Shown one piece after another: positions 5,754 to 21,672 of a stretch of 64,000 bases of DNA; the first letter of the stretch is position 1, and every line of letters begins with the position of its first letter. This DNA comes from Photobacterium sp. TLY01. Its GTDB lineage: Bacteria > Pseudomonadota > Gammaproteobacteria > Enterobacterales > Vibrionaceae. The notes beneath the pieces are model-generated. The model searched no databases. It saw nothing but the letters and a program-made list of their open reading frames with translations, and was not told the origin of the DNA. The stretch lies in contig NZ_CP090364.1 of NCBI RefSeq assembly GCF_021432065.1, positions 186,001 to 250,000 of the forward strand. Direction: 5' to 3'. Made by a program: the position numbers and the translations under genes.

Positions 5754-6785
5754 ATGAAAATTAAAGCATTAGCAAAACTGAAGCCTGAAGAAGGCATCTG
5801 GATGACAGAGGTCGACAAGCCTGAGATGGGCCACAACGACCTGCTGATCAAGATTAAGAAAACCGCGATTTGTGGTACTGACGTTCATATCTATAACTGG
5901 GACGAATGGTCACAAAATACAATTCCTGTGCCTATGGTCGTCGGTCACGAGTACGTGGGCGAAGTGGTCGCGATTGGCCAGGAAGTGCGTGGTTTTGAAA
6001 TTGGCGACCGTGTCTCTGGTGAAGGCCACATTACCTGCGGTCACTGCCGCAACTGTCGTGGCGGTCGCACTCACCTGTGCCGTAACACGATTGGTGTGGG
6101 TGTCAACCGTGAAGGGGCCTTTGCTGAGTATCTGGTGATCCCGGCCTTCAACGCATTTAAGATCCCGGACAACATTTCAGACGATCTGGCGTCGATTTTT
6201 GACCCGTTTGGTAATGCAGTGCACACGGCGCTGTCTTTCGACCTGGTGGGCGAAGATGTGCTGATCACAGGTGCCGGTCCTATCGGGATCATGGCGGCGG
6301 CGGTGGCCAAGCACGTCGGCGCGCGCCATGTGGTGATCACGGACGTGAACGAATTTCGCCTGGATCTGGCCCGCAAGATGGGCGTGACCCGTGCCGTCAA
6401 CGTGGCTGAGCAAAAGCTGGAAGATGTGATGGCGGAGCTGGGCATGACAGAAGGCTTTGATGTCGGTCTGGAAATGTCGGGTGTACCGGCGGCGTTTAAC
6501 AGCATGCTGTCGAGCATGAACCATGGCGGAAAGATTGCCATGCTGGGTATTCCGCCTTCGAACATGGGCATTGACTGGACTCAGGTGATTTTCAAAGGTC
6601 TGGTGATCAAAGGGATTTATGGCCGTGAAATGTTTGAGACCTGGTACAAGATGGCCAGCTTGATTCAGTCTGGTCTGGATCTGACGCCTATCATCACCCA
6701 CCACTACAGCGTGGATGATTTCCAACAGGGCTTTGATGTCATGCGCTCCGGCCAGTCCGGTAAAGTGATTCTGAGCTGGGACTGA
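5754..6785 (+). CDS. tdh: L-threonine 3-dehydrogenase
   Basis: Oxidises L-threonine to 2-amino-3-ketobutyrate with NAD+, supplying the substrate of Kbl. The zinc-dependent medium-chain dehydrogenase of 343 residues shows the catalytic zinc ligands Cys40 and His65-Glu66 (GHEYVG), and the structural zinc cysteines 95, 98, 101 and 109. The Rossmann motif GAGPIG follows in the middle of the protein. It is nearly identical in layout to E. coli Tdh, with two extra N-terminal residues. The start at MKIKAL was chosen over in-frame upstream codons because the upstream residues do not resemble the family. A strong terminator follows. Confidence 0.97.
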
Positions 6786-6811
6786 TGTCCCTCTCATATG
6801 CAAACAAACGG

Positions 6812-6843
6812 AACGGTGTGCCTCGGCACACCGTTTTTTTTCA
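6812..6843 (+). terminator. Rho-independent terminator of kbl-tdh
   Basis: AACGGTGTGCC pairs with GGCACACCGTT around a TC loop, followed by eight T residues. The T-run reaches the last codons of the convergent yibQ gene, so the two transcription units meet here with no spare sequence. Confidence 0.9.
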
Positions 6844-7560
6844 GCTGCCGGTGGAAAACAGTTCAGACAGGCGAACCAGAGTGACCTGCTGCTGAATCTC
6901 AGGCAGCATGGCATTCAGGGTTGAGAGAGTGACCGGATGAGGATGGCCAATCGCAATCACCGCACCTTGTTGCTTCGCCTGTAAAACAGCCCGTTTCAGC
7001 TGGCGGCGGATGAAGGTTTCGCTTGGGACATGATCCAGAAAAACATGGCGGCGCAGGGCGGGAATGTGTGCCGCCCGGGCTTGCGCCTGAGCAACAGACT
7101 TCGCCGTCGTGCGGCTATCGAGAAAGGCGAGATGCTCTTGTTTGAGCACTTCCATCACCCAGTCCATCGCAGTCGGGTTCTGGGTCAGGGCGCTGCCCAT
7201 ATGATTATTGACCGCCACCGCGCCCGGCACGCGCGACAGCGCATGGCGGAGTTTATCCTGAAGCTCTTCCTTGCTCATGGTGGCGGTCAGGGTAGTCATT
7301 TCAAGCGGCGCCGTTCTGCTCGGCTGCATTGGCATGTGGAGCAGGACATCTCTGCTTTCCTGCTGAGCCTGACGGGCAGTGAGCTGGTCGTAAGGTGTTT
7401 CCGGCAAGATCGAGACACTGATTTGCGGCGGCAGGGCTGAGAGCGGGGAAGGCATGTGCTGATAACCCAGATCATCAATCACAATCGCCAGTCTGGCCGC
7501 TTGCGCTGAAGATGCCAGAAGCAACAACCAGATCAGACCTACACGAATTAACCCCTTCAT
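6841..7560 (-). CDS. yibQ: Divergent polysaccharide deacetylase family protein (YibQ)
   Basis: Secreted protein of about 239 residues with the divergent polysaccharide deacetylase (DUF610) fold: AIVIDDLGY soon after the signal peptide, LLHMPM, the NNHMGSALT segment and a late GHPHP motif, which together form the metal-binding set of the family. The biochemical activity is not established as far as I know. The start chosen (MKGLIRV) gives a clean signal peptide ending SSAQA and has AAGGA eight bases upstream; two in-frame ATGs 9 and 24 bases upstream are possible. It follows envC on the same strand after a short gap, an association seen widely in gammaproteobacteria. Confidence 0.85.
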   Translation of the reverse strand: MKGLIRVGLIWLLLLASSAQAARLAIVIDDLGYQHMPSPLSALPPQISVSILPETPYDQLTARQAQQESRDVLLHMPMQPSRTAPLEMTTLTATMSKEELQDKLRHALSRVPGAVAVNNHMGSALTQNPTAMDWVMEVLKQEHLAFLDSRTTAKSVAQAQARAAHIPALRRHVFLDHVPSETFIRRQLKRAVLQAKQQGAVIAIGHPHPVTLSTLNAMLPEIQQQVTLVRLSELFSTGS

Positions 7561-7606
7561 TCGAACCATCCTTGTTCTGCTCATGGGTGTTGTGCGCTAT
7601 AAAAAG

Positions 7607-8773
7607 TTAACGGCTCAGCCAGGGCTGCGGGTTGGTTGGCGTGCCTTTGCGGCGAATCTCAAAATACAGTCCCGGTGTTTCCTGACCGCCGCTGTCGCCA
7701 ACCAGTGCGATGGCTTCGTTTCGCTGCACGGTATCGCCCACTTTCTTCAGCACGGTCTGGTTATAGCCGTAAAAAGTCATGTCGCCCTGGCCGTGATCTA
7801 CGGCGACCATCAGGCCGTAGCCGCGCAGCCAGTCGGCAAAGACGACTTTACCACCATGGACGGCTTTGACTTCGCTGCCCACGGCCTGACTGATCACCAT
7901 GCCTTTCCAGCGCAGCTCACCCTGAAGCGGACTGCCGTACGCGTGGCGGATACGGCCTGTGACCGGCCAGGGCAATTTGCCTTTGTATTTGCCCAGGCCG
8001 TCCATATTGACTCTGGCCTGGCGTGCCGCTTCCTCGGCGGCTTTGCGGGCTTTGGCAATTTCGGCGATCAGACGGGATTCATTGCTTTTCAGCTCGGTTA
8101 AGTAGCGTTTATCTGCATTCAATTGGCCCTGTAATTCCCTGACCGTGCTTTGACGCGCCTGCTGACTGCCCAGCAGTGATGCCCGTTCTTTTTTCAACTG
8201 GTCGAGCAGGGATTGCTGTTCATGACGCTGTTCGCTGAGCTGATGTTTTTTGAGCTGCAGTTCGGTATCCGTGGCGGCCAGTTCATCCAGCGCCTGGCTG
8301 CGAGCCTGACTGAGGTGCGAGGCATAGATGGCCATGCGCTCTAACCGGGCCGGGTCACTTTCACCCAGCAGGTTGGCGAGCGGTGAGGATTTCCCAAGTT
8401 TGTATTGGCTGGTCAGTAACTCTTTCAGCAGCTCACGCTGGCCAATCTGACGTTGCAGCAGTGTTTGCTGTTCTTTTTCCAGTTGGCTGATTGAGCGCGT
8501 CAGGCCGTCTGTTTTTTGTTCGGCGGTGCGAATGTTACCAGCCGCTTTGGCAATGGCCAGCTCCTGTTGCTTCAGGGTTTTCTGCACATCATTGAGCTGT
8601 TGTTTTTTATCGCTCAGCTGTTTTTGCTGTCGCGCGATTTCCTGTTTCATGCCCTGCAGCTGATTTTGATCGTCAGCAAACAGGGGGGCACTGAACGCCA
8701 GGCATAGTAAAGCGCCAGTGCCTAAGGCACTGGCGCGGAGTGTACAGATCGCACGATAAAATAATTCCCGCAT
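7607..8773 (-). CDS. envC: Murein hydrolase activator EnvC
   Basis: Periplasmic activator of the N-acetylmuramoyl-L-alanine amidases AmiA/AmiB during cell separation. The 388-residue precursor has a signal peptide (about residues 1-33), a long Gln/Lys/Glu-rich coiled coil (about 35-265) and a C-terminal LytM (peptidase M23-like) domain from about 280. LytM segments such as GRIRHAYGSP, VAVDHGQGD and LVGDSGG are visible. EnvC LytM domains are degenerate and do not cleave peptidoglycan themselves. It lies just downstream of gpmM (8 bases) and upstream of yibQ, so the three may be cotranscribed. Confidence 0.95.
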   Translation of the reverse strand: MRELFYRAICTLRASALGTGALLCLAFSAPLFADDQNQLQGMKQEIARQQKQLSDKKQQLNDVQKTLKQQELAIAKAAGNIRTAEQKTDGLTRSISQLEKEQQTLLQRQIGQRELLKELLTSQYKLGKSSPLANLLGESDPARLERMAIYASHLSQARSQALDELAATDTELQLKKHQLSEQRHEQQSLLDQLKKERASLLGSQQARQSTVRELQGQLNADKRYLTELKSNESRLIAEIAKARKAAEEAARQARVNMDGLGKYKGKLPWPVTGRIRHAYGSPLQGELRWKGMVISQAVGSEVKAVHGGKVVFADWLRGYGLMVAVDHGQGDMTFYGYNQTVLKKVGDTVQRNEAIALVGDSGGQETPGLYFEIRRKGTPTNPQPWLSR

Positions 8774-8781
8774 GGCAGGGA

Positions 8782-10320
8782 TTATTTCAGATCGTACAGC
8801 ACCTGACCAGTCATCTCTGACGGGATTTGGAGCCCGGTCAATGACAGCATGGTTGGCGCCAGATCAGACAGCTTGCCGCCGTCTTTCAGGCTGATCTGCT
8901 TATCGCCGACATAAATCAGCGGCACAGGCAGGTTGGTGTGTGCGGTATGAATCCCACCAGTTTCCGGGTTCACCATCATTTCTGCGTTCCCGTGGTCGGC
9001 GGTGATCAGCAGCTGTCCGTCTGCTTCTTTAATGGCTTCAACCACGCGGCCAATACTTTCATCAATGGCTTCACAGGCTTTCACTGCCGCATCGTACACA
9101 CCGGTGTGGCCGACCATGTCGCCGTTCGGGTAGTTACAGATGATCATATCGAACTCGCCGCCTTTGATGGCTGCGACCAGCTTGTCGGTCAGCTCAGGGG
9201 CACTCATTTCAGGCTGCAGGTCGTAGGTAGCGACTTTAGGGGATGCCACCAGAGCGCGGGACTCACCTTCAAACTCGGTTTCGACACCGCCATTGAAGAA
9301 GAAGGTCACGTGCGCATATTTCTCGGTTTCAGAAATGCGCAGTTGGGTTTTGCCTTGTTTCGACAGCCATTCACCTAAGGTGTTGGTCAGGCTTTCCGGC
9401 GGGAACGCGGATGGCAAATCGATATCGGCGGCATACTGGGTCAGGGTCACGAAGTGCAGCGCCGGGAATTGTTTGCGCGCAAAGCCGCTGAAATCAGCCA
9501 GGAACGCGCGGGAGATCTGACGGGCACGGTCGGCACGGAAATTCATGAAGATCACCGCATCACCGTCCTGCATGGCGGCATCCGGCTGGCCGTCGGCACG
9601 AATCACAGTGGCTTTGACGAATTCATCGTTCTCTTCGCGGGCGTACGCAGCCTGCAAACCTTCAACCGCAGACGCCGCGGTGAAATCACCTTTGGCCGCA
9701 GTCAGCAGGTCATAGGCAGACTCAACACGCTCCCAGTTGTTGTCCCGGTCCATGGCGTAGTAACGGCCAACCAGAGACGCGGTGCGGCCTTTACCCAGTT
9801 GGGCAAATAAGGCATCGAAGCGTTCCAGAGAGGCTTGAGCACTGCGTGGCGGCGTGTCGCGGCCGTCGAGGAAACAGTGCAGGTAAATGTGCTCTGCACC
9901 GCGCTCTGCTGCCATTTTCACGGCCGCTTCAATGTGATCTTCGTGGCTGTGAACGCCACCGGGTGACATCAGGCCCATAATGTGCACTGCTTTGCCTGCG
10001 GAAATCGCGCTGTCCATGGCTTTGACCAGCGCAGGGTTATGCTGAAATTCACCGTCGGAGATGGATTTGGCGATGCGGGTCAGATCCTGATAGACCACGC
10101 GGCCTGCGCCGATATTGGTGTGGCCCACTTCTGAGTTACCCATTTGACCATCAGGCAGACCCACATCAAGACCAGAGGCCTGAATCAGGGTGTTGGCTTC
10201 ATTGGCCATCAGGTTATCCAGTACCGGGGTATTGGCATTGGCAATCGCGTTATTTGCCGTGTCTTCGCGGTATCCCCAACCGTCCAGAATCACCAGCGCC
10301 AGTGGTTTCTTAGCAGACAT
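8782..10320 (-). CDS. gpmM: 2,3-bisphosphoglycerate-independent phosphoglycerate mutase
   Basis: Interconverts 3- and 2-phosphoglycerate in glycolysis and gluconeogenesis, using manganese and a phosphoserine intermediate. The 512-residue protein belongs to the alkaline phosphatase superfamily: ILDGWGYRE near residue 11 carries the first metal aspartate, Ser63 in [10 protein letters not shown] is the phosphorylated serine, and [10 protein letters not shown] near the C-terminus carries late metal ligands. The ATG at 10320 has GGAGAGGA upstream and gives the normal family length; 45 extra bases of open frame upstream were excluded on that basis. The upstream intergenic region holds two perfect palindromes. 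Confidence 0.97.
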
Positions 10321-10745
10321 AAGTTGTCCTCTCCATAATGTGAACAATCTGAAAATGTAGACCAATTACCTCAACATCCGGCTTTAAAGCCGCTTCCAGG
10401 GGCTCAGGTAAGGAGTCAGGTCGGTAATTTTACTACAAAATTACCGCTTCTTTGTAGTTCAGATCAAACATTGCTGTAAATGGTTTGTTATCTTGACCTC
10501 CTAGAATATATGCATTTCCCCGGAGTAACGTAAGAGCTGAGCATACGTTTTTTTCTATTGTAGTTATCGGCGGCGCCTTGCGATATGTGGTTTATTGCGC
10601 ACAAAGCAGTGAGCCGTAACGCGTAAATGTGGCGGGTGGCTGTACTTCATTCCGGCCACAGGTATACTCAGTTTCCTTAATTTTGGTTGAATCTTACCCC
10701 TGTGCGGGAATCCGGCAGGCAGTCAAGGTGAATAGAGCGAAAATC
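10321..10745. other. Divergent intergenic region gpmM/yibN
   Basis: This 425-base region separates the two divergent genes and must hold both promoters. It contains a 14-base palindrome CGGCTTTAAAGCCG (10379-10392) and a larger perfect inverted repeat at 10422-10446, listed separately. I see no convincing small coding sequence; an open frame running into yibN from 10629 lacks a ribosome-binding site and family similarity. Confidence 0.6.
10422..10446. repeat. Perfect 10-base inverted repeat
   Basis: CGGTAATTTT and AAAATTACCG are exact complements separated by ACTAC. No T-run follows on the plus strand and none on the minus strand, so it does not look like an intrinsic terminator. It could be an operator for gpmM or a stem in the gpmM leader RNA, about 100 bases upstream of its start codon. 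Confidence 0.6.
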
Positions 10746-11180
10746 ATGCAGCAATTCATAGAGTTTGTTACGAGTAATCCTATTTTGTCACTGGTCTGGG
10801 TTGGCCTGGTTCTGGCCCTGATCGCTTCCATGGTGAAGCAAAAAACTGCGGGTTATGCCGTGGTCACCCCGAATCAGGCGACAATACTGGTCAATCGTGA
10901 AGACGGCGTTTTTGTCGATATTCGCAGCAAAGATGAGTTCCAGCGTGGCCACATTGCAGGCGCACTTCACATTTTACCAAGCGAAATTAAAGCCGAGAAC
11001 TTTGGACAGCTTGAAAAGTATAAGTCAGCCCCCATCATTGTGGTATGCAAAACAGGTCAGACGGCGCAGGAAAGCGCCAGCCTGCTGCACAAAGCGGGTT
11101 ACGCCAAGGTGAGCCTGCTGAAGGACGGATTGATTTCCTGGAATGAGGCCAATTTGCCTCTGGTGCAGGGAAAGAAATAA
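10746..11180 (+). CDS. yibN: Membrane-anchored rhodanese-like protein (YibN)
   Basis: Single-pass membrane protein of 144 residues with an N-terminal transmembrane helix (about residues 11-30) and a cytoplasmic rhodanese domain from about 45. The active-site loop is CKTGQTA with the catalytic cysteine at 101, so sulfur transfer or a persulfide-carrying role is possible. The start at MQQFIEF gives the same length as E. coli YibN. It precedes secB by 112 bases, matching the conserved order yibN-secB-gpsA-cysE. The physiological substrate is not known to me. Confidence 0.9.
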   Translation: MQQFIEFVTSNPILSLVWVGLVLALIASMVKQKTAGYAVVTPNQATILVNREDGVFVDIRSKDEFQRGHIAGALHILPSEIKAENFGQLEKYKSAPIIVVCKTGQTAQESASLLHKAGYAKVSLLKDGLISWNEANLPLVQGKK

Positions 11181-13855: not shown

Positions 13856-14320
13856 TTATTTTGCCCCGGCAAAATCAAACTGGCGCCAGGCTTCATAGGC
13901 AATGATGGCGGCCGCATTGGAGAGGTTCAGGCTGCGGCTGTCCGGATGCATCGGGATGCGCAGCCGTTGCGTTGCTGGCAGGCTTTCAATGATGTCCGCC
14001 GGCAAACCGCGGGTTTCCGGGCCGAACAGCAGGATGTCGCCATCCGCAAACTGGGCCTGAGTATGGTACTGGGTGGCTTTGGTGGTGCAGGCAAACAGGC
14101 GGCGACCGGCAGTGGCGGCCAGAAAGGCCTCAAAGTTGGCGTGACGATGCACATGGGCCAGATCGTGGTAATCCAGGCCGGCACGGCGTAATTTTTTCTC
14201 TTCCAGATCAAAGCCTAATGGCTCAATCAGATGCAGATGCGCACCGCAATTGGCGCACAGGCGAATAATGTTGCCCGTATTGGGCGCAATTTCAGGTTCG
14301 TACAGAGCAATATCAAACAT
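13856..14320 (-). CDS. trmL: tRNA (cytidine(34)-2'-O)-methyltransferase
   Basis: SPOUT-class methyltransferase (YibK) that 2'-O-methylates the wobble base of leucine tRNAs using S-adenosylmethionine. The 154-residue protein shows the family opening [21 protein letters not shown] and the knot-forming SAM-binding segments [10 protein letters not shown] and [16 protein letters not shown]. Length is standard for TrmL. It is convergent with cysE, its usual neighbour in gammaproteobacteria. The accessory operon begins just beyond its 5' end. Confidence 0.96.
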
Positions 14321-14376: not shown

Positions 14377-15117
14377 CTAGTGCTGCGCTGCTGCCCATGA
14401 CAAGAGCGTATTGAGCATCAGGATCAGCCCGACGGCCAGCAGAACGCCAAACACCAGCTTGCTGAAGTGCGCCTGATCGATACGGTGATGCAGCCGGTTA
14501 CCGACCCATGCGCCGATGCCGACACAGGGCGCCAGCCAGAGCAAGGTTTCCCGGTAGGGTGCCAGTTCGCCGGCCTGCAGGAAATAGATCGTCAGGCAGC
14601 CATTGAGGCAGAGCCAGACTGTCAGTAAGGTGGCTCTGAACTGGGTTTTATCCAGCGAGGTGCGGGCCAGCGCATACACCAGCAGCGGGCCGCCGGACGC
14701 GAACAAGCCATGGGTGATCCCGGCTGCCGTAATGGTAGAGTGCCGCCGCAGTGCAGGCATCTCAGCCGCCGCAGGTTGCAGCAGGGCACGGGCGGCAAAC
14801 CAGATGATGAGGCCGGCAAATAAAGTTTTGCTGAGTAACTCTGGCAGATAGGGGGTTAGCAAAACACCGATGGCAGTACCGGTCAGCATCATGGGCAAAA
14901 CAGTACGCAACAGAAACCTGAACTGAATATGCTGTCGCAGACGCCAGGTCATGGGTGCTGTCATCAGCAGATTCAAGGGCACCAGAATATGCACCAGGGG
15001 ATCGATCTCCATCACCAGCGCGCCCAGCGACAGCGCCAGCACGATACTGCCAAATCCCGTCATGGCTTCAATGCCAAAGGCCAGAATAATCGCTATCCCC
15101 AGCCACACCAGTGTCAT
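14377..15117 (-). CDS. TauE/SafE family membrane permease
   Basis: Predicted inner-membrane transporter of 246 residues with about seven or eight hydrophobic segments and the duplicated TauE/SafE topology. It opens with a glycine-rich first helix (AMTGFGSIVLALSLGAL). Characterised relatives export sulfite or other sulfur-containing anions such as sulfoacetate, but the family is broad and the substrate here is unknown. Its ATG overlaps the stop of the upstream SDR gene by four bases (ATGA), making it the last gene of a five-gene translationally linked operon. The context suggests export of a product of the oxidoreductases encoded upstream; this is inference. Confidence 0.8.
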   Translation of the reverse strand: MTLVWLGIAIILAFGIEAMTGFGSIVLALSLGALVMEIDPLVHILVPLNLLMTAPMTWRLRQHIQFRFLLRTVLPMMLTGTAIGVLLTPYLPELLSKTLFAGLIIWFAARALLQPAAAEMPALRRHSTITAAGITHGLFASGGPLLVYALARTSLDKTQFRATLLTVWLCLNGCLTIYFLQAGELAPYRETLLWLAPCVGIGAWVGNRLHHRIDQAHFSKLVFGVLLAVGLILMLNTLLSWAAAQH

Positions 15118-15908
15118 GACTTCACCTCAAGCTCAGTGGCAAATTTCCGGGACATCAGGTGCAGGAACACCCGTGGCAGCAGGCGGTAGAGCAAGCTGGA
15201 GAAATGGGTGAAGCGATCCGGGAACAAGCGCTCTTTGTGTTGCGCAATAGCGGCAAATATCTGCTCGGCCATCCATGAGCTGGTACGCATTTTGCCGACC
15301 ATTGAGCGTTTGTGGCGGCTGCGTCCCCCGTCGCCATTGAGGGCATTCTGTTCGATGGGCGTATCAAGAAAGCTGGGATAAACCATCAGTACCGTCACGC
15401 CATCCTGTCGCATTTCGGCCCGGAAAGTTTCAAAGTACTGGTGCAGGGCGGATTTAGAGGCGCAGTAACCGGCACGCCCCATCACTGGCATCCAGCCTGC
15501 CATTGAACTGATGTTGACCACTTTGGCCTGATGCTGCACCAGCAGCGGCAGCAGCCCTTGAGTCAGGCGGACCGGCGCAAAGAAGTTGACCGCCATGACT
15601 TTTTCGATCACCGCCGGTTGCGTGATACGGGACAGCGAACGGTGGGTGATTCCGGCATTGTTGATCAGCAGCGCAATCTCAGGCTCGTGCTGCCGGATAT
15701 CGGCAATCAGCGTATTCACGGCATGGCTGTCGGCGAGATCGCAGACAAAGCTCTGGCTGTCTTCCAGCGTGGCGGCCAGTTCTGTCAGCTTGTCTTCGTC
15801 CCTGTCGATCAGATACAGCCGGTAGTGATATGACAGCCGAATGGCCAGATCGCGACCCAGCCCTGAGGCGGCACCGGTGAGGATGGCAACTGGTTTGTGC
15901 TCAGTCAT
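15114..15908 (-). CDS. Classical short-chain dehydrogenase/reductase
   Basis: NAD(P)-dependent oxidoreductase of 264 residues. The cofactor motif TGAASGLG lies at residues 11-18, NNAG at 83-86, and the catalytic set is Ser134/135 with Tyr148 and Lys152 (YCASK). An Asp after the second beta strand (LIDRDED) suggests NAD(H) preference. The tail beyond residue 215 is basic and hydrophobic (RLLPRVFLHLM), as in SDRs that associate with membranes or long-chain substrates. It overlaps the neighbouring genes by 8 bases upstream and 4 downstream. The substrate is unknown; SDRs next to FMO genes often act on the alcohol, aldehyde or ketone partner of the oxygenation reaction. Confidence 0.85.
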   Translation of the reverse strand: MTEHKPVAILTGAASGLGRDLAIRLSYHYRLYLIDRDEDKLTELAATLEDSQSFVCDLADSHAVNTLIADIRQHEPEIALLINNAGITHRSLSRITQPAVIEKVMAVNFFAPVRLTQGLLPLLVQHQAKVVNISSMAGWMPVMGRAGYCASKSALHQYFETFRAEMRQDGVTVLMVYPSFLDTPIEQNALNGDGGRSRHKRSMVGKMRTSSWMAEQIFAAIAQHKERLFPDRFTHFSSLLYRLLPRVFLHLMSRKFATELEVKS

Positions 15909-16854
15909 GCGAACACCCCCTGGCCGGGATCAACCCTTGCTGGCTGGCATAAAATTCGAAGACTTCCAGCGAGGTTTTTTTCGGGATATAGCCAAAATCA
16001 AATTTCAGCGCGTAGTTTGCCAGCACAGGTCGATAGCGAAGAAAATCCAGCTGCTCGGGGCCGTATTGGGTCAAACGCAGCAGCTTGCCGATCCGCAGGG
16101 CGGTTTTCAGCAGCCAGGCTGGTAAATCCCGGGTGTCTTTGCCGAGAATATCGGCGATCTGGTGGACACTGAGGGCGCCGTCGCCCGCCAGGTTGAATTG
16201 CCCGGATTTATTCTGGCTGACCCCTTCGGTGATGATATCGATCACGTCCTGATCCCAGATGAAGACAAACGGCGACGGCGAGCCTTTGATGGCCAGTAAT
16301 TTGTCTTTGCGGAACAGATCCGTGATCAGGTTGTTGGTTTCAGCCCCCAGCACAGTGCCCGGGCGCAGGATCAGCTGTTGCAGTTCCGGGTAGGCGACAC
16401 GGTATGTGGCCAGCATCTCTTCCACCAGGCGTTTGTGGTAGCTGTAGGAAAAATGCCGGTTGCCCCGCAGCGGGTCGGACTCACGCAGCCACTCGGCATT
16501 GTCGGCATGATAGCCGTACGCAGCGCCGCTGCTGGTGACCGTCAGATGGGCGACCTGATGATTGATACAGGCTTTGAGCAGATTTTCTGTCCCGTTGACA
16601 TCAATGTCGTAGTCTCTGTCCCGGTCACGGGAGGGCTGCACTATGCTGGCCAGATGGATCACATGGCTGATGCGATGCCGGCCAATGAAATCACTCAGCG
16701 CAGCAGAGCGAATGTCCATTTTCTGATAGGTAATCCCCTCAGGCTGAGCGTCCTGAATATCTATGCCAAATACCTCGGCGTGCCGGGCGAGGCGCACGCT
16801 GAGCTGCCGGCCCAGATAGCCCTGGCAGCCGGTGATTAAAATTCGCTGCGTCAT
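15901..16854 (-). CDS. NAD-dependent epimerase/dehydratase family protein (extended SDR)
   Basis: Extended short-chain dehydrogenase of 317 residues with the GxxGxxG motif GCQGYLG at residues 9-15, an acidic residue after strand 2 (GIDIQD) favouring NAD, and the catalytic Tyr137/Lys141 pair (YSYHK) preceded by the TSSGAAYG serine segment. The substrate cannot be read from the sequence; members act on nucleotide sugars but also on sterols and other alcohols. It overlaps the transporter gene upstream by four bases (ATGA) and the classical SDR gene downstream by eight. Its company (monooxygenase, SDR, BASS transporter) argues against a role in LPS sugar synthesis. Confidence 0.83.
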   Translation of the reverse strand: MTQRILITGCQGYLGRQLSVRLARHAEVFGIDIQDAQPEGITYQKMDIRSAALSDFIGRHRISHVIHLASIVQPSRDRDRDYDIDVNGTENLLKACINHQVAHLTVTSSGAAYGYHADNAEWLRESDPLRGNRHFSYSYHKRLVEEMLATYRVAYPELQQLILRPGTVLGAETNNLITDLFRKDKLLAIKGSPSPFVFIWDQDVIDIITEGVSQNKSGQFNLAGDGALSVHQIADILGKDTRDLPAWLLKTALRIGKLLRLTQYGPEQLDFLRYRPVLANYALKFDFGYIPKKTSLEVFEFYASQQGLIPARGCSHD

Positions 16855-17777
16855 AAGGTCCCTTTATGCTGTTCGCGCGTGGATGAAACAGGTGAGGTGA
16901 GGGCGGCGTGGCGGTGATCCAGGCGGTGCCAGCAATAGCACAGTCCCATGCCACTGATCAGATGCCAGATCCCCCAGCCTGCGGCAATAATGGCCATCCC
17001 GGTCAGATCGCCGAAAAAGGTGAAAATGATGCCCAGTCCCAGGCCGGAATTCTGCAGCCCGACTTCCAGTGTGATCGCCCGGCGATCGGCAACCGGCAGT
17101 TTCATGACCCGGGCACAGAGCCAGCCGATCCCCAGCGCCAGGGCATTGTGGACAATCACCGCCAGCAGGAAAACACTGGCACCGGCAATAAAGCGCGGCC
17201 AGTTACTGACCAACGCAATCGCCACAAAGCTGAACAGAGTGAGCAGCGAGATGATGCGGAAAAAGGGCTCGCTGCGTTTGGCAAAACCGGGGGCTATCTG
17301 GCTGCAGATCAGTCCGAGCGCCAGCGGTAACGCCAGCACCAGTGCCACCATCATCAACAGACTTTCCGGCGGCACGGCAATTTGCTTCAGCAACTGGGCC
17401 GTCTGCGGGTTCATGCCGGCATAGAACATGAAATTAAAGGGGGTCATGAAGGCTGCGGCGACACTGGCGATTCCTGTCATACTGATGGACATCGCCGTAT
17501 TGCCTTTGGCCAGATAGGTGACGATATTGGAAAAGCTGCCGCCGGGGCAACTGGCCACCAGGATTAAGCCCAAGGCCACTTCGGCGGGCATGGGCACCAG
17601 CAGAGTAAGCAGCCAGGTCAGCGCCGGCATCAGCACAAACTGGGCCGCCAGTCCGGTCAGGGGGCCTTTGGGCTGGCGGATGACCTGGCGGAAATCGGCC
17701 GGCTTGAGGCTCAGGGCGATGCCAAACATCATCATGGCCAGGATCAGATTCAGTAACAGCAGGCTCGTGCTCGACAT
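16851..17777 (-). CDS. Bile acid:sodium symporter family (BASS) transporter
   Basis: Membrane protein of 308 residues with about nine or ten hydrophobic helices. It shows family hallmarks: the unwound-helix region SCPGGSFSNIVTYLAKG in the first repeat and LEVGLQNSGLGLGI in the second, which in structurally studied homologues form the sodium and substrate crossover. BASS proteins import organic anions such as bile acids, pyruvate or pantoate. The substrate here is unknown. The start codon abuts the stop of the monooxygenase gene (TGA then ATG), so it is translated with it. I infer it imports the compound handled by the operon's oxidoreductases. Confidence 0.85.
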   Translation of the reverse strand: MSSTSLLLLNLILAMMMFGIALSLKPADFRQVIRQPKGPLTGLAAQFVLMPALTWLLTLLVPMPAEVALGLILVASCPGGSFSNIVTYLAKGNTAMSISMTGIASVAAAFMTPFNFMFYAGMNPQTAQLLKQIAVPPESLLMMVALVLALPLALGLICSQIAPGFAKRSEPFFRIISLLTLFSFVAIALVSNWPRFIAGASVFLLAVIVHNALALGIGWLCARVMKLPVADRRAITLEVGLQNSGLGLGIIFTFFGDLTGMAIIAAGWGIWHLISGMGLCYCWHRLDHRHAALTSPVSSTREQHKGTL

Positions 17778-19103
17778 TCAGCGCTCCCATTGCAGCTGGC
17801 GCATTTCGCGGTTCAGTGCCGCCAGGTAATCGGCTTTGTGTACATAGTAGGCCATCCGCTCCAGGTTGAGATATGCAATGCCGCCGTCAATTCTGCGGCT
17901 CGCCTGCTGGCGGACTTTGTTCATAAATTTTTCCGCTTCGGCCGGTTTCTCATGGCGTGCCCGGATGAAACGGGCTACCAGCTGCGCCTGATCATCACGT
18001 CCCTGCCAGCCAAGCCCTGAGGCTTCCACCATGCCCATCACAAACAGGTTGTCATGCTGCGGGGTGAACATATTGAGGTACAGGCTGGGCGCATCGCCGT
18101 CCCAGTTCAGGTGCCGACGGTCGATAAAGGGATAATGCAGCGAATAGCCGGTGGCCTCAAGGATCAGATCATACTCTGCTTCCTGCCCGTCCTGGAAGCG
18201 GGCGCCATTGGGCAGTAACTGCTCAATCGATGGCCGCACGCCAATATCACCGTGCCCGATGTGGTGCAGGAACATGGAATTGACCACAGGGTGGGATTCG
18301 TACATGCGGTAGTCGGGATCCGGCAGACCAAACTGACTGGGCTTGCCGGAAATCAGTCTGACCAGGGTGCCGTCGACGAGCTGTTTCAGCCGGTTCGGTA
18401 AGCGCACTTTCCCCCCCAGAGTATCTGTGGGGACGCCCGCCACAAATTTAGGCAGGAAGTAATATCCCCGGCGGATCACCATGTCAACTGAGCGGGCGCG
18501 ATGCACGGCATCGACTGCAATGTCGCAGGCACTGTTCCCGCAGCCGACAATCAGGACCCGTTTTCCGGCAAAGACCTCGGCGCTTTTATAATCGCTGCTG
18601 TGAAATTGCTCGCCCCGGAATTCGCCGTCAAAGTTGCCCCGTCTGGGGTGATGCAGCGTACCATTGGCCAGCAGTACCCCGGATGCCATCAGGGTAAAGG
18701 TCTCATCATGCTGGCGGTAGGTGACCAGCCAGTTGCCCTGACAAGGCTCGACCTTCTCCACCCAGGCGTGAAAGCGATAATGGCCATAGAGATTAAAATG
18801 CCGCGCATAATCCTGAAAATAGCGGCACAGCTGATCATGTTTCGGATAGGTGGCCACATGATCCGCCATCGGAAAATCAGAGAACTCTGTCATTCGTTTG
18901 GAGGAAATCAGGTGAGCCGATTCATACATCGTACTGGTCGGGCTGCTGATGTCCCACAGTCCGCCGACATCGGCATGGGCTTCCAGCCCGATCACAGGCA
19001 ATCCTTGTTCGGCCAGGCGGCGTACTGTGCACAGGCCCATCGGGCCGGCGCCAATTACAACGTAGGGATGCATACTGAATGACTCTCTGTTTAGGTTCTG
19101 CAT
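17778..19103 (-). CDS. Flavin-containing monooxygenase-like NAD(P)/FAD oxidoreductase
   Basis: Class B flavoprotein of 441 residues. The FAD-binding motif GAGPMG lies at residues 18-23, the FMO identifying motif FxGxxxHSxxY at 162-172, and the NADP-binding GCGNSA at 187-192. A tyrosine closes the FMO motif where type I Baeyer-Villiger enzymes have tryptophan, so N- or S-oxygenation, or an atypical Baeyer-Villiger activity, is more likely. A start 30 bases further in (MHPYVVIGAG, at 19073) is equally plausible because neither start has a strong ribosome-binding site. It is first in the operon and divergent from the AraC gene. The gene content (FMO, SDR, divergent AraC) resembles the mymA/virS arrangement of mycobacteria. 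Confidence 0.85.
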   Translation of the reverse strand: MQNLNRESFSMHPYVVIGAGPMGLCTVRRLAEQGLPVIGLEAHADVGGLWDISSPTSTMYESAHLISSKRMTEFSDFPMADHVATYPKHDQLCRYFQDYARHFNLYGHYRFHAWVEKVEPCQGNWLVTYRQHDETFTLMASGVLLANGTLHHPRRGNFDGEFRGEQFHSSDYKSAEVFAGKRVLIVGCGNSACDIAVDAVHRARSVDMVIRRGYYFLPKFVAGVPTDTLGGKVRLPNRLKQLVDGTLVRLISGKPSQFGLPDPDYRMYESHPVVNSMFLHHIGHGDIGVRPSIEQLLPNGARFQDGQEAEYDLILEATGYSLHYPFIDRRHLNWDGDAPSLYLNMFTPQHDNLFVMGMVEASGLGWQGRDDQAQLVARFIRARHEKPAEAEKFMNKVRQQASRRIDGGIAYLNLERMAYYVHKADYLAALNREMRQLQWER

Positions 19104-19279
19104 ATCATCATTAACTTTTTGTTAACACTTGGCTATGGCCCAGACGGGACATAAACAGGTTAATTTGGGACACTATGGCCCAAAATAACAGTCGGGTTCC
19201 GAGCCGCATCACAGCGTTCGCGCAGGGGCCTGTGGTATAACGACCGCAAGTATGAGGAAGCATCACTCGGGTCAGTACT
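19104..19279. promoter_or_regulatory. Divergent FMO/AraC promoter region with spaced direct repeats
   Basis: CTATGGCCCA occurs at 19133-19142 and again at 19173-19182, 40 bases apart. GGGACA occurs at 19146-19151 and 19167-19172, 21 bases (two helical turns) apart. TTAAC and GTTAA also flank a T5 loop near 19111-19125. Directly repeated half-sites at helical spacing are typical of AraC-family operators, so this is the likely binding region of the adjacent regulator. No promoter hexamers could be fixed with confidence. Confidence 0.6.
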
Positions 19280-20269
19280 ATGTATGCCAGCACGGTCACA
19301 CCAGGATTTAGCAAGGCAATCCTTAAGTTTCTGCCGTCTTTGGGGATCACGCTGCCGGACGCCCTGCGGCGCCAGGTCGCCGCTTGTCCGGCCGGTGAAC
19401 GCTTGCCCTTGTCCTTGCAGGATCAGCTCTGGCAGACGATTGCGGATCTTGCCAGTTGCGACGGGGTCGGGTTGCGGATTGGCCGCCAACTGCAGATCGA
19501 TCAGTTTGATATGCTGGGCTTTTTGTTACTCAGTAGTGTCAATCTGGCCGGTGCGGTAGACAATCTGTTGCGTTTTTCTGATCTGGTCGGAGAAGGCGGA
19601 CGCTTTGCCCGGTTCCACAGTCAGGAAGGCTGGCATCTGGTTTATCGCCCCCATTTTGAGTCGGCCAGAGCCCCGCGACTGGAAGCCATTTTTGCCAGTG
19701 TGATGCAGGGCGCTGCCGTGGTCGCCGGTGGCCCGGTGATCCCGAAGCGGGTCGCGTTCGAGCATCCGCCTCAGGCGCCGCTGGCCCTGTACCGCGAGGT
19801 GTTTGGCGAGACTCAGATCTGTTTTTCGCAGACAGGGAACGCCTTGGTTTTCAGTGATGAAGACTGGTTGTGCAGCCGGCGTGACATTCAGCCGGAATTG
19901 CAGGCCCAGTTGATACGGCTGGCGCAGCAGCAGATGAAACGACTGGCGCCCGCCTCGTTTCTGGACCAAATCAGCCACCTGCTGACACAGCAACCCAGTC
20001 TGACCCGCGCGCAGACTGCGGCCTTGTGCAATCTCAGTGAGCGCCACCTCAACCGTAAGCTGGCGGATTTTGGCGTCAGCTTCAGGACCTTGTCTGAGCA
20101 GATAAAAAAGCAGCAGGCTCTGCAGATGCTGAACCAAAAAGGCAGCACCCAGGCCAATCTGGCGCTGCATTTTGGTTATGCAGATGACAGTGCCTTTGCC
20201 AAAGCGTTCAAACGCTGGACCGGCATGGGGATCCGGGACTACCGCGCCTCAGGCTGTGACAGCGAGTGA
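19280..20269 (+). CDS. AraC family transcriptional regulator with Arabinose_bd-type N-terminal domain
   Basis: Regulator of 329 residues. The N-terminal two-thirds resembles the Arabinose_bd domain of OruR/VirS-type AraC proteins (LGLRIG-like GVGLRIGRQLQ, then FDMLGFLLLSS). The C-terminal HTH_18 domain covers about residues 235-325, with LCNLSERHLNRKLADFG as first helix-turn-helix and HFGYADDSAFAKAFKRWTG as the second. It is transcribed away from the FMO operon and is the obvious candidate activator of it. Its last 31 bases overlap the antisense end of cpxA. The inducer is unknown; relatives respond to small organic metabolites. Confidence 0.88.
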   Translation: MYASTVTPGFSKAILKFLPSLGITLPDALRRQVAACPAGERLPLSLQDQLWQTIADLASCDGVGLRIGRQLQIDQFDMLGFLLLSSVNLAGAVDNLLRFSDLVGEGGRFARFHSQEGWHLVYRPHFESARAPRLEAIFASVMQGAAVVAGGPVIPKRVAFEHPPQAPLALYREVFGETQICFSQTGNALVFSDEDWLCSRRDIQPELQAQLIRLAQQQMKRLAPASFLDQISHLLTQQPSLTRAQTAALCNLSERHLNRKLADFGVSFRTLSEQIKKQQALQMLNQKGSTQANLALHFGYADDSAFAKAFKRWTGMGIRDYRASGCDSE

Positions 20270-21672
20270 CGCTGGCTTTTTTGTGCCAGCGGTAGCATCA
20301 GGGTGACTCTCAGTCCGCCCAGCGGGCTGTGGCTGGCGGTGATGCTGCCATTGTGCTGGCGAATGGCGTTTTCTGTAATCGCCAGCCCCAGTCCGGTGCC
20401 ACCGCTGTGGCGGTCCCGGGCGGTTGAGACGCGGTAGAAAGGCCGGAAAATATCTTGCAGCTGATCATCGGGCACGCCTTCGCCGTTATCGTCTATGGTC
20501 ACGGTCAGCGAATGGTCATTGGCGCTGAACTGAACATCGATGCGATCTTGGCTGTAGTAGATGGCATTGCGAACCACATTTTCCAGGGCACTGATCAGCA
20601 ATTCTGCGTTGCCTGCCAGCGGCCAGGGCTGTAACGGGCTGCAGGTGAGCGATTTCTGGTTCTGGCTGGCCTCAAATTCGGCATCTTCCAGCATGTCCTG
20701 CCACAGGCTGACCGCATCACTGTACTCGCGGGTTTCCTGCCCGTGGATTTGCATCCGCGACAGTTCCAGCAGTTTGGCAATCATGGCTTCCAGCCGTTCC
20801 GCTTCGGTATCAATGCGATCCAGCTCTGTGCTGTTGCCCTGCTTGCGCTGGGCCAGGGCGGTGGCCATGCGGAGCCGGGTCAGCGGAGAGCGCAGTTCAT
20901 GAGAGATATCTGACAGCAGTCGCTGTTGCCCGCTGATCATCTGATTGACTGAGGATACCATCTGATTAAAGCTGGCGCCGGCCTGGCGGAATTCAAGAGG
21001 GCCGGAGGATTCGAGCGTCGGATCCTGAGTAAATTGTCCGCTGGCAACGCGTTGCGCCGCTTCTTGCAGTTTGCGCGCCGGACGGCTTAATGCCCAGGCC
21101 AGCCACAACAGCAGCGGGGTACTGACCAGCATAGTCAGCAGCAGCAGATGAAAAGGCTGATCGAGAATACGCAGGAAGAAAGGCGGCGGGCGGTGCGAGA
21201 TTCTGCCGACATACATCAGCGCGCTTTGCTGCTGATCGGTCACCAGAAAAGGTCCGGCCACCATCCAGCGGCCGTAGAGTTTCTGGCGCGGCGCGTCCGG
21301 GCTGTCGGCACTGGTAATGAAATTGCGTAACGCTTTGGTACGCTGATGCGGCGTCAGGAGTTCGCCGTCATCATTGGTGAAATACAGCTGCATGCCTTTG
21401 TGGCGCTCGGGATCGGCCAGCGGCAGCAGTTTTGCCTGCAGCGGACCGGGCTGGCTGCTTAACCGCTCTGAAATGCGCGCCGCGGCGTCCTGATAACGCG
21501 CCAGCTCTGGCTGAGGAATCGTATGCTGCGAGCGAGGGTCAAGGTGGGGCAGCAGCAGAAGCACCACAACAACCAGCATCAGGGTCAGCCAGAAAATGGC
21601 AAAGATCCGGCTGGAGAGGCGGTTGAACACTGGCTTGTTGAATATGGGCCGGCTGAATGGGCTGAGTTTCAT
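20239..21672 (-). CDS. cpxA: Envelope-stress sensor histidine kinase CpxA
   Basis: Inner-membrane sensor kinase of 477 residues that phosphorylates CpxR in response to misfolded envelope proteins. It shows transmembrane helices at about 23-43 and 176-194, a periplasmic sensor domain between them, HAMP (SRPARKLQEAAQRVASG), the phosphoacceptor His in SDISHELRSPLTRLR, the N box (NVVRNAIYYS) and G boxes (DNGEGVP, GGTGLGLAI). The ATG overlaps the cpxR stop by four bases. The C-terminus runs about 11 residues beyond what I recall for E. coli CpxA, and this tail is encoded opposite the end of the araC-type gene. Confidence 0.95.
   Translation of the reverse strand: MKLSPFSRPIFNKPVFNRLSSRIFAIFWLTLMLVVVVLLLLPHLDPRSQHTIPQPELARYQDAAARISERLSSQPGPLQAKLLPLADPERHKGMQLYFTNDDGELLTPHQRTKALRNFITSADSPDAPRQKLYGRWMVAGPFLVTDQQQSALMYVGRISHRPPPFFLRILDQPFHLLLLTMLVSTPLLLWLAWALSRPARKLQEAAQRVASGQFTQDPTLESSGPLEFRQAGASFNQMVSSVNQMISGQQRLLSDISHELRSPLTRLRMATALAQRKQGNSTELDRIDTEAERLEAMIAKLLELSRMQIHGQETREYSDAVSLWQDMLEDAEFEASQNQKSLTCSPLQPWPLAGNAELLISALENVVRNAIYYSQDRIDVQFSANDHSLTVTIDDNGEGVPDDQLQDIFRPFYRVSTARDRHSGGTGLGLAITENAIRQHNGSITASHSPLGGLRVTLMLPLAQKSQRHSLSQPEAR

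Follow-up and report, generated by a model that had tools for sequence, protein, structure and literature searches.

The six genes at positions 14377-20269 of the stretch of Photobacterium sp. TLY01 analysed here (contig NZ_CP090364.1, positions 186,001 to 250,000; the whole 64,000 nucleotides are called the window) almost certainly form one unit: five minus-strand genes encoding a class B flavin monooxygenase (FMO), an organic anion transporter (BASS), an extended and a classical short-chain dehydrogenase (eSDR and cSDR) and a TauE/SafE-family permease (TauE), and a divergent gene encoding an AraC-type regulator (AraC). FMO and eSDR are the core of this block, BASS, cSDR and TauE are accessories, and beyond the core the block is modular. 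A two-box operator, new here, lies between the AraC and FMO genes. Tentatively, the block may be an inducible module for the uptake of a carboxylate with an apolar tail, its oxygenation and redox conversion, and the export of an anion.

The order AraC (divergent), FMO, BASS, eSDR, cSDR, TauE is common to 60 loci of many species, a recurrence which rules out chance adjacency and supports the module of the original prediction as a co-conserved one. The loci were obtained by scanning genome contigs with FMO peptides, which is not a census: 80 pattern matches gave 63 confirmed loci, three of these, at 26-31% FMO identity, were set aside, and the FMO of the remaining 60 is 52-97% identical. When the partner genes were re-searched in these 60 FMO loci, eSDR was found in 58, BASS in 57, AraC in 52, cSDR in 48 and TauE in 42. 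Contig ends explain some of the absences: AraC in L028, everything past FMO in L045, and TauE in L050. The six families covary in pairwise protein distance, with Spearman coefficients of 0.77-0.90 over the 15 gene pairs (uncorrected for host relatedness). Genes outside the block vary between clades, and some recur within clades: a CBS-domain gene follows TauE in four Marinobacter loci and a gene resembling GNAT acetyltransferases comes after the operon in four Alcanivoracaceae loci. Nine downstream neighbours scanned by Pfam belong to seven different families or to none, and clustering of the flanking genes is unreliable because of spurious antisense open reading frames (ORFs) in high-GC loci. 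Genes of the Mpo1-like family (2-hydroxy fatty acid dioxygenases) are located near six Alcanivoracaceae loci, L019-L022, L061 and L063, one of them checked by Pfam.

Among 369 sampled Gammaproteobacteria, with only the first few candidates per genome scored, FMO (E<=1e-120) is present in five genomes and the eSDR profile (E<=1e-60) in three, all within those five. Since eSDR is recovered only in genomes with FMO in this sample and is found in 58 of the 60 loci, FMO and eSDR are the closest partners. The other genes are more dispensable: cSDR is not found in 12 of the 60 loci, some of them at contig ends, and in seven of the loci without it (L015, L024, L030, L040, L052, L058 and L060) eSDR is less than 50 bases from TauE, so that cSDR is genuinely absent there. 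L102, L104 and L105 show eSDR directly after FMO and no BASS, and a wider cut round L104 (L139) contains AraC, FMO, eSDR, cSDR and TauE; these loci belong to G665 and G666, two genomes with two FMO copies each. L136 shows a reordered set at 6560-10436, with eSDR, TauE, FMO and another SDR, two four-base overlaps, and neither BASS nor AraC, which argues for function and not inheritance alone. Ribosomal protein and RNA polymerase alpha genes precede the L136 module. Saccharospirillum L014 has FMO, eSDR and, after eSDR, a gene encoding a hotdog thioesterase (4HBT_2 6.4e-12, 10446-10856), and BASS, cSDR and TauE were not found in this locus.

FMO (17778-19103, minus strand, 441 aa; PF00743, FMO-like, 1e-55) shows the motifs GAGPMG (18), FRGEQFHSSDY (162), GCGNS (187) and EATGY (316), and so has two Rossmann motifs, the FMO motif and ATGY. 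By the usual definitions of the FMO-type motifs and of the Baeyer-Villiger monooxygenase (BVMO) fingerprint, FxGxxxHxxxW[P/D], it is of the FMO type and not of the Baeyer-Villiger type: FxGxxxHxxx[YF] is present in 59 of the 61 aligned rows and the BVMO fingerprint in none of the 61 (60 non-empty). The two other rows are L008, which reads YRGEMMHSCDY, and L014, which is empty and whose own sequence fits the FMO motif. In a fold search the protein matches FMOs, the closest structure being DiatB (PDB 8z12), and its structural neighbours include pyrrolizidine alkaloid N-oxygenase, Tmm and S-allyl-cysteine S-oxygenase. No YUCCA enzyme is among the fold matches listed, which carries no weight.

The operator is located between FMO and AraC (19280-20269, plus strand, 329 aa; Arabinose_bd, the PF12625 ligand domain, 4.1e-28, and HTH_18 2.1e-14). 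Box 1, TGTCCCAAATTAACC, lies at 19158-19172 on the minus strand, and box 2, which begins TGTCCCG, at 19137-19151 on the same strand, 21 bases downstream of box 1 and 33 bases before the annotated FMO start. At least 11 of the 15 seed positions of box 1, whose form is TGTCC(C/T)(G/A)AATTAACC, match in 39 of the 53 AraC-FMO gaps (those of the window and of 52 loci), compared with an expectation of 1.05 from shuffles; the count is partly circular, since the seed was taken from the same data and the sequences are related. Box 2, as GTCCCG at 21-22 bases past box 1, shows five or six of six matches in 37 of the 53 gaps, versus 1.7 in shuffles. The box forms are degenerate in Marinobacter and Halopseudomonas, and the box 1 pattern does not fit the operators of G667, G669 and G671, which are too degenerate. 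In the gaps of three Photobacterium species, 75 of 84 columns are common on the FMO side versus 50 of 88 on the AraC side, a split chosen after viewing the alignment. Direct-repeat scans of single intergenic regions were weak (44 of 52 not significant) and the operator emerged only by comparing clades. An exact 10-base repeat, CTATGGCCCA, is present at 19133-19142 and 19173-19182, 40 bases apart, overlapping the outer edges of the operator. The family consensus of FMO starts at the equivalent of Met11, and L014 has a stop codon just ahead of that position; the true start is probably Met11 (19073), 10 codons inside the annotated start, which would leave space for a promoter after box 2.

AraC would bind both boxes and serve mainly this operon. 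With one mismatch or none allowed, box 1 occurs 12 times in 11 genomes, six times at the operon and six elsewhere, versus 14 occurrences of a backward control pattern. The sites outside the operon were rejected as a regulon, being at background by this control in a search which covered box 1 and not degenerate tandem sites elsewhere. The other match in G000, L120, coincides with a hairpin close to a gene of the MarC family and has no second box; a near-identical stretch in G047 explains its conservation, and it was attributed to chance. Box 1 is absent from G060 and G068, two Photobacterium genomes described below; this was expected and is weak evidence.

BASS (16851-17777, minus strand, 308 aa; PF01758, SBF, 2.7e-36) matches 3zux by phmmer at 7e-45; 3zux and 3zuy are presumably ASBT_NM. 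The sodium-site residues S114, N115, E260 and Q264, numbered as we take them to be in ASBT_NM, are the same in 58, 58, 58 and 55 of 58 sequences, respectively, and the motif CPGGxFSN is present in 57 of 58. Contacts were mapped via ungapped alignment blocks to 3zux, with the pantoate contact residues of ASBT_NM, including N295, which touches the far hydroxyl of pantoate, as given in PMC10645422. Most contacts at the carboxylate end are kept: N265 in 58 of 58, G267 in 55 of 58 and H294 in 58 of 58, and T112 is Ser or Thr in 56 of 58. Unlike ASBT_NM, the window family shows Phe at A113 (57 of 58) and Leu at N295 (58 of 58). This combination favours an apolar-tailed carboxylate over pantoate, and BASS would carry such a compound. 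The NCBIfam model of the pantoate transporter PanS gives 141.4 bits, below its cut-off of 400, which also sets the window BASS apart from PanS.

All six proteins are above the Pfam cut-off for their own family, and the catalytic motifs are intact in both SDRs and FMO. The eSDR (15901-16854, minus strand, 317 aa; Epimerase 2.4e-23) has a GalE-like fold, nearest to the GalE-type nucleotide-sugar epimerases; it differs from these in being about 20% identical and in scoring 49.3 bits with the galE NCBIfam equivalog, below the cut-off of 262.3. The sterol-like substrate of the original prediction finds nothing here beyond a secondary Pfam match of eSDR to 3Beta_HSD (1.1e-11). The cSDR (15114-15908, minus strand, 264 aa; adh_short 3.8e-43) shows TGxxxGxG in 49 of 49 sequences and 201.7 bits with PRK06181 (cut-off 215), and the only PDB match of its profile at 1e-40 is a (3R)-hydroxyacyl-CoA dehydrogenase. 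TauE (14377-15117, minus strand, 246 aa; TauE 3e-22) reaches 79.9 bits with PF01925, above the gathering cut-off of 32.6. Among the matches listed (for cSDR, the best 25 of 204), neither the five operon proteins nor AraC reach an NCBIfam cut-off, so no function is transferable to the operon proteins, and a comparison with PHROGs gave no useful match.

FMO is present in 43 of 46 genomes of the Alcanivoracaceae (the family of L047, where FMO alone was sought), in 13 of 124 of Marinobacter (the genus of L059) and in four of 296 of the Vibrionaceae at 1e-60, one of these at only 34% identity. Three of the 52 Photobacterium genomes, all inside the Vibrionaceae sample, contain it. Three Alcanivoracaceae loci were read: L126 and L130 contain all six genes, and L129 all except TauE. 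In the FMO tree (61 rows, L014 excluded) the window FMO joins Thalassolituus (Oceanospirillaceae; 100/97), and Paraglaciecola and Pseudidiomarina come next. This departure from the host families suggests transfer of the block between hosts.

From the 52 Photobacterium genomes, 30 trmL loci were fetched: three contain the operon, 25 show cpxA beside trmL, and two, in G060 and G068, are informative. The sister species G060 has two deletions, one corresponding to window positions 14466-16807, with most of TauE, all of cSDR and nearly all of eSDR, and the other to 17796-20168, with nearly all of FMO, the operator and most of AraC. It retains an intact BASS of 307 residues, 92% identical, and the ends of TauE, eSDR, FMO and AraC. 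G068 shows BASS alone, 77-78% identical, between cpxA and trmL. The ratio of nonsynonymous to synonymous substitutions (dN/dS) of BASS is 0.12-0.19 in pairs with G060 or G068, values which include the time before the deletions, and dS to G068 is about 1; by this measure the relic BASS is constrained, though less than in operon carriers. Since BASS outlives the enzymes in both genomes, the transporter would be useful without them and the operon would be older in Photobacterium than its present spread suggests. The lineage-specific acquisition originally proposed agrees with the patchy distribution in the Vibrionaceae, but a simply recent arrival in Photobacterium does not fit these relics.

The sequence evidence can be ordered into the following scheme for the module favoured above. 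AraC would sense a ligand, bind both direct-repeat boxes, which are spaced at 21-22 bases ahead of FMO, and switch the operon on; BASS would import an apolar-tailed carboxylate with sodium; FMO, with FAD and NADPH, would add one oxygen atom to it; eSDR and the optional cSDR would oxidise or reduce a hydroxyl or carbonyl group; and TauE would export a small anionic product. That an organic anion is taken up and an anion sent out would, by itself, be reasonable. Several points weigh against the scheme. Substrate, expression and binding are all deduced from sequence; the argument from the BASS residues uses one distant homologue and is no proof of specificity; the epimerase-like fold of eSDR does not point to a carboxylate; and the function of TauE is its family label alone. 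Pairs with the relics give BASS a higher dN/dS than pairs of operon carriers do (0.085-0.09). Two of the five FMO genomes in the Gammaproteobacteria sample have no eSDR match. L017 and L137 carry FMO without the remaining genes, BASS is missing from L014, L102, L104, L105 and L136, which keep FMO and eSDR, and AraC is not found in eight of the 60 loci (two at contig ends); neither import nor the AraC switch is thus obligatory. A broader version, which is doubtful, would see an undescribed pathway for an apolar carboxylate that is common in the sea but has gone unrecognised, perhaps a 2-oxo or a 2-hydroxy acid, with a dedicated AraC switch, a sodium-driven importer, an FMO-type committed step with the GalE-fold SDR, and anion export; the block would have passed between marine bacteria and got as far as Gemmatimonadota, and Photobacterium could keep the importer alone after losing the pathway.

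Other chemistries would fit parts of these data. FMO could oxygenate the sulfur or nitrogen of an organosulfur compound or amine, TauE exporting sulfite, sulfonate or a similar anion while the SDRs act on the carbon skeleton. The FMO-type motif, the N- and S-oxygenases among the structural neighbours and the TauE family label favour this route, as does a gene for a Cys/Met-metabolism pyridoxal phosphate enzyme adjoining the operon in nine of the 60 loci (Pfam on one), but all nine belong to the Alcanivoracaceae, the only family where it was seen, and the gene is convergent with AraC. To our knowledge, moreover, Tmm-type systems are not usually accompanied by two SDRs and a BASS transporter, and on balance this route is somewhat unlikely. 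It is quite unlikely that BASS imports apolar 2-oxo acids which FMO, with the chemistry of the plant YUCCA enzymes, oxidatively decarboxylates to arylacetate- or alkanoate-type acids for export by TauE. The contacts of BASS to the carboxylate end and 2-position of pantoate, with loss of that of N295, would agree with this, as would a class B FMO without the BVMO fingerprint, but it leaves eSDR, the closest partner of FMO, unexplained.

A route from lipids or alkanes, in which the SDRs make a ketone and FMO turns it into an ester in a Baeyer-Villiger-like step, is unlikely. The high frequency of FMO in the Alcanivoracaceae, the thioesterase of L014, the Mpo1-like genes near six of the 60 loci, the DUF962 gene in a distant FMO cluster and the hydroxyacyl-CoA dehydrogenase match of cSDR are in line with it; the lack of the BVMO fingerprint in the FMO rows and of an esterase among the five operon genes is not. 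G675, presumably A. borkumensis SK2, shows no FMO match at 1e-120, so this obligate alkane degrader seems to manage without the enzyme, which weakens the idea. PMC6850023 names three FMOs of A. borkumensis that are induced by alkanes, ABO_0282, ABO_1097 and ABO_2107; a connection with them was dropped because G675 lacks the operon FMO, and those would not be this enzyme. The module might instead make and export a decorated product resembling a sugar or lipid, an improbable reading to which the GalE-type fold of eSDR lends itself, together with the ketosynthase, carrier-protein or phosphopantetheinyl transferase genes that adjoin distant plasmid relatives of FMO (40-41% identical) and the structural match of FMO, a match by structure only, to DiatB. 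Against biosynthesis, the five genes and the 15 neighbouring proteins scanned include no synthase or ligase (one kind of these neighbours being the GNAT-like gene after the operon in four Alcanivoracaceae loci), and the combination of AraC control and an importer is more in keeping with uptake.

A kinship with the mycobacterial mymA locus, to which the original prediction likened the block, is not supported. The mymA operon includes acyl-CoA synthetase and hydrolase genes, and neither is found among the five window genes. In PMC13234193, MymA is called a Baeyer-Villiger monooxygenase and its operon has seven genes; the window has the FMO-type motif, a five-gene operon, and BASS and TauE transporters. 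Both systems pair an AraC-type regulator with an FMO-superfamily operon, and VirS (8rcx) matches residues 148-325 of the window AraC at 8.4e-9; given the FMO-type motif and the lack of the BVMO fingerprint, only the regulator type is common. The AraC-FMO-SDR-DUF962 cluster of a Burkholderia ambifaria plasmid (L069) also resembles the block, with a divergent AraC (31% over 186 aa), FMO (37%) and a classical SDR (32% over 183 aa), but no eSDR, BASS or TauE is annotated beside it, and its best box match is 8 of 15. The annotated DUF962 gene of this cluster is at 10320-10631.

At base level, the block lies between trmL (13856-14320) and cpxA (20239-21672), and the original description of a five-gene operon with overlapping or abutting junctions and a divergent AraC agrees with both the coordinates and Pfam: TauE and cSDR overlap by four bases, cSDR and eSDR by eight, eSDR and BASS by four, and BASS and FMO abut with none. 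AraC and cpxA converge and share their last 31 bases (20239-20269), so that a transcript of the regulator could extend antisense into the end of cpxA. In the originally proposed comparison of GC content with the flanks, the value at third codon positions is higher in the operon (0.67-0.76) than the mean of 0.625 (standard deviation 0.053) of 45 other window ORFs, which were mechanically called and some of which may be spurious, but cpxA (0.70) and cpxR (0.69) lie in the same range. The comparison is thus not decisive, and foreign composition was rejected as a mark of recent arrival.

No description of the operon was found among the matches listed in open-licence literature, a scope with subscription journals mostly outside it, in agreement with the view that the system is undescribed. 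The block recurs in many marine bacteria as a kit: a switch, an importer, an oxygenase, two dehydrogenases and an exporter. The Alcanivoracaceae are known for oil degradation, and since FMO is present in nearly all sampled genomes of this family and the operon seems unnamed, the substrate of the operon is probably one of importance in the sea. The transporter-only relics could serve as natural controls to separate the role of the importer from that of the enzymes. The conserved operator makes the question of the inducer directly testable: a compound firing an AraC-operator reporter would identify the inducer and through it the pathway, with no need to guess at the chemistry.

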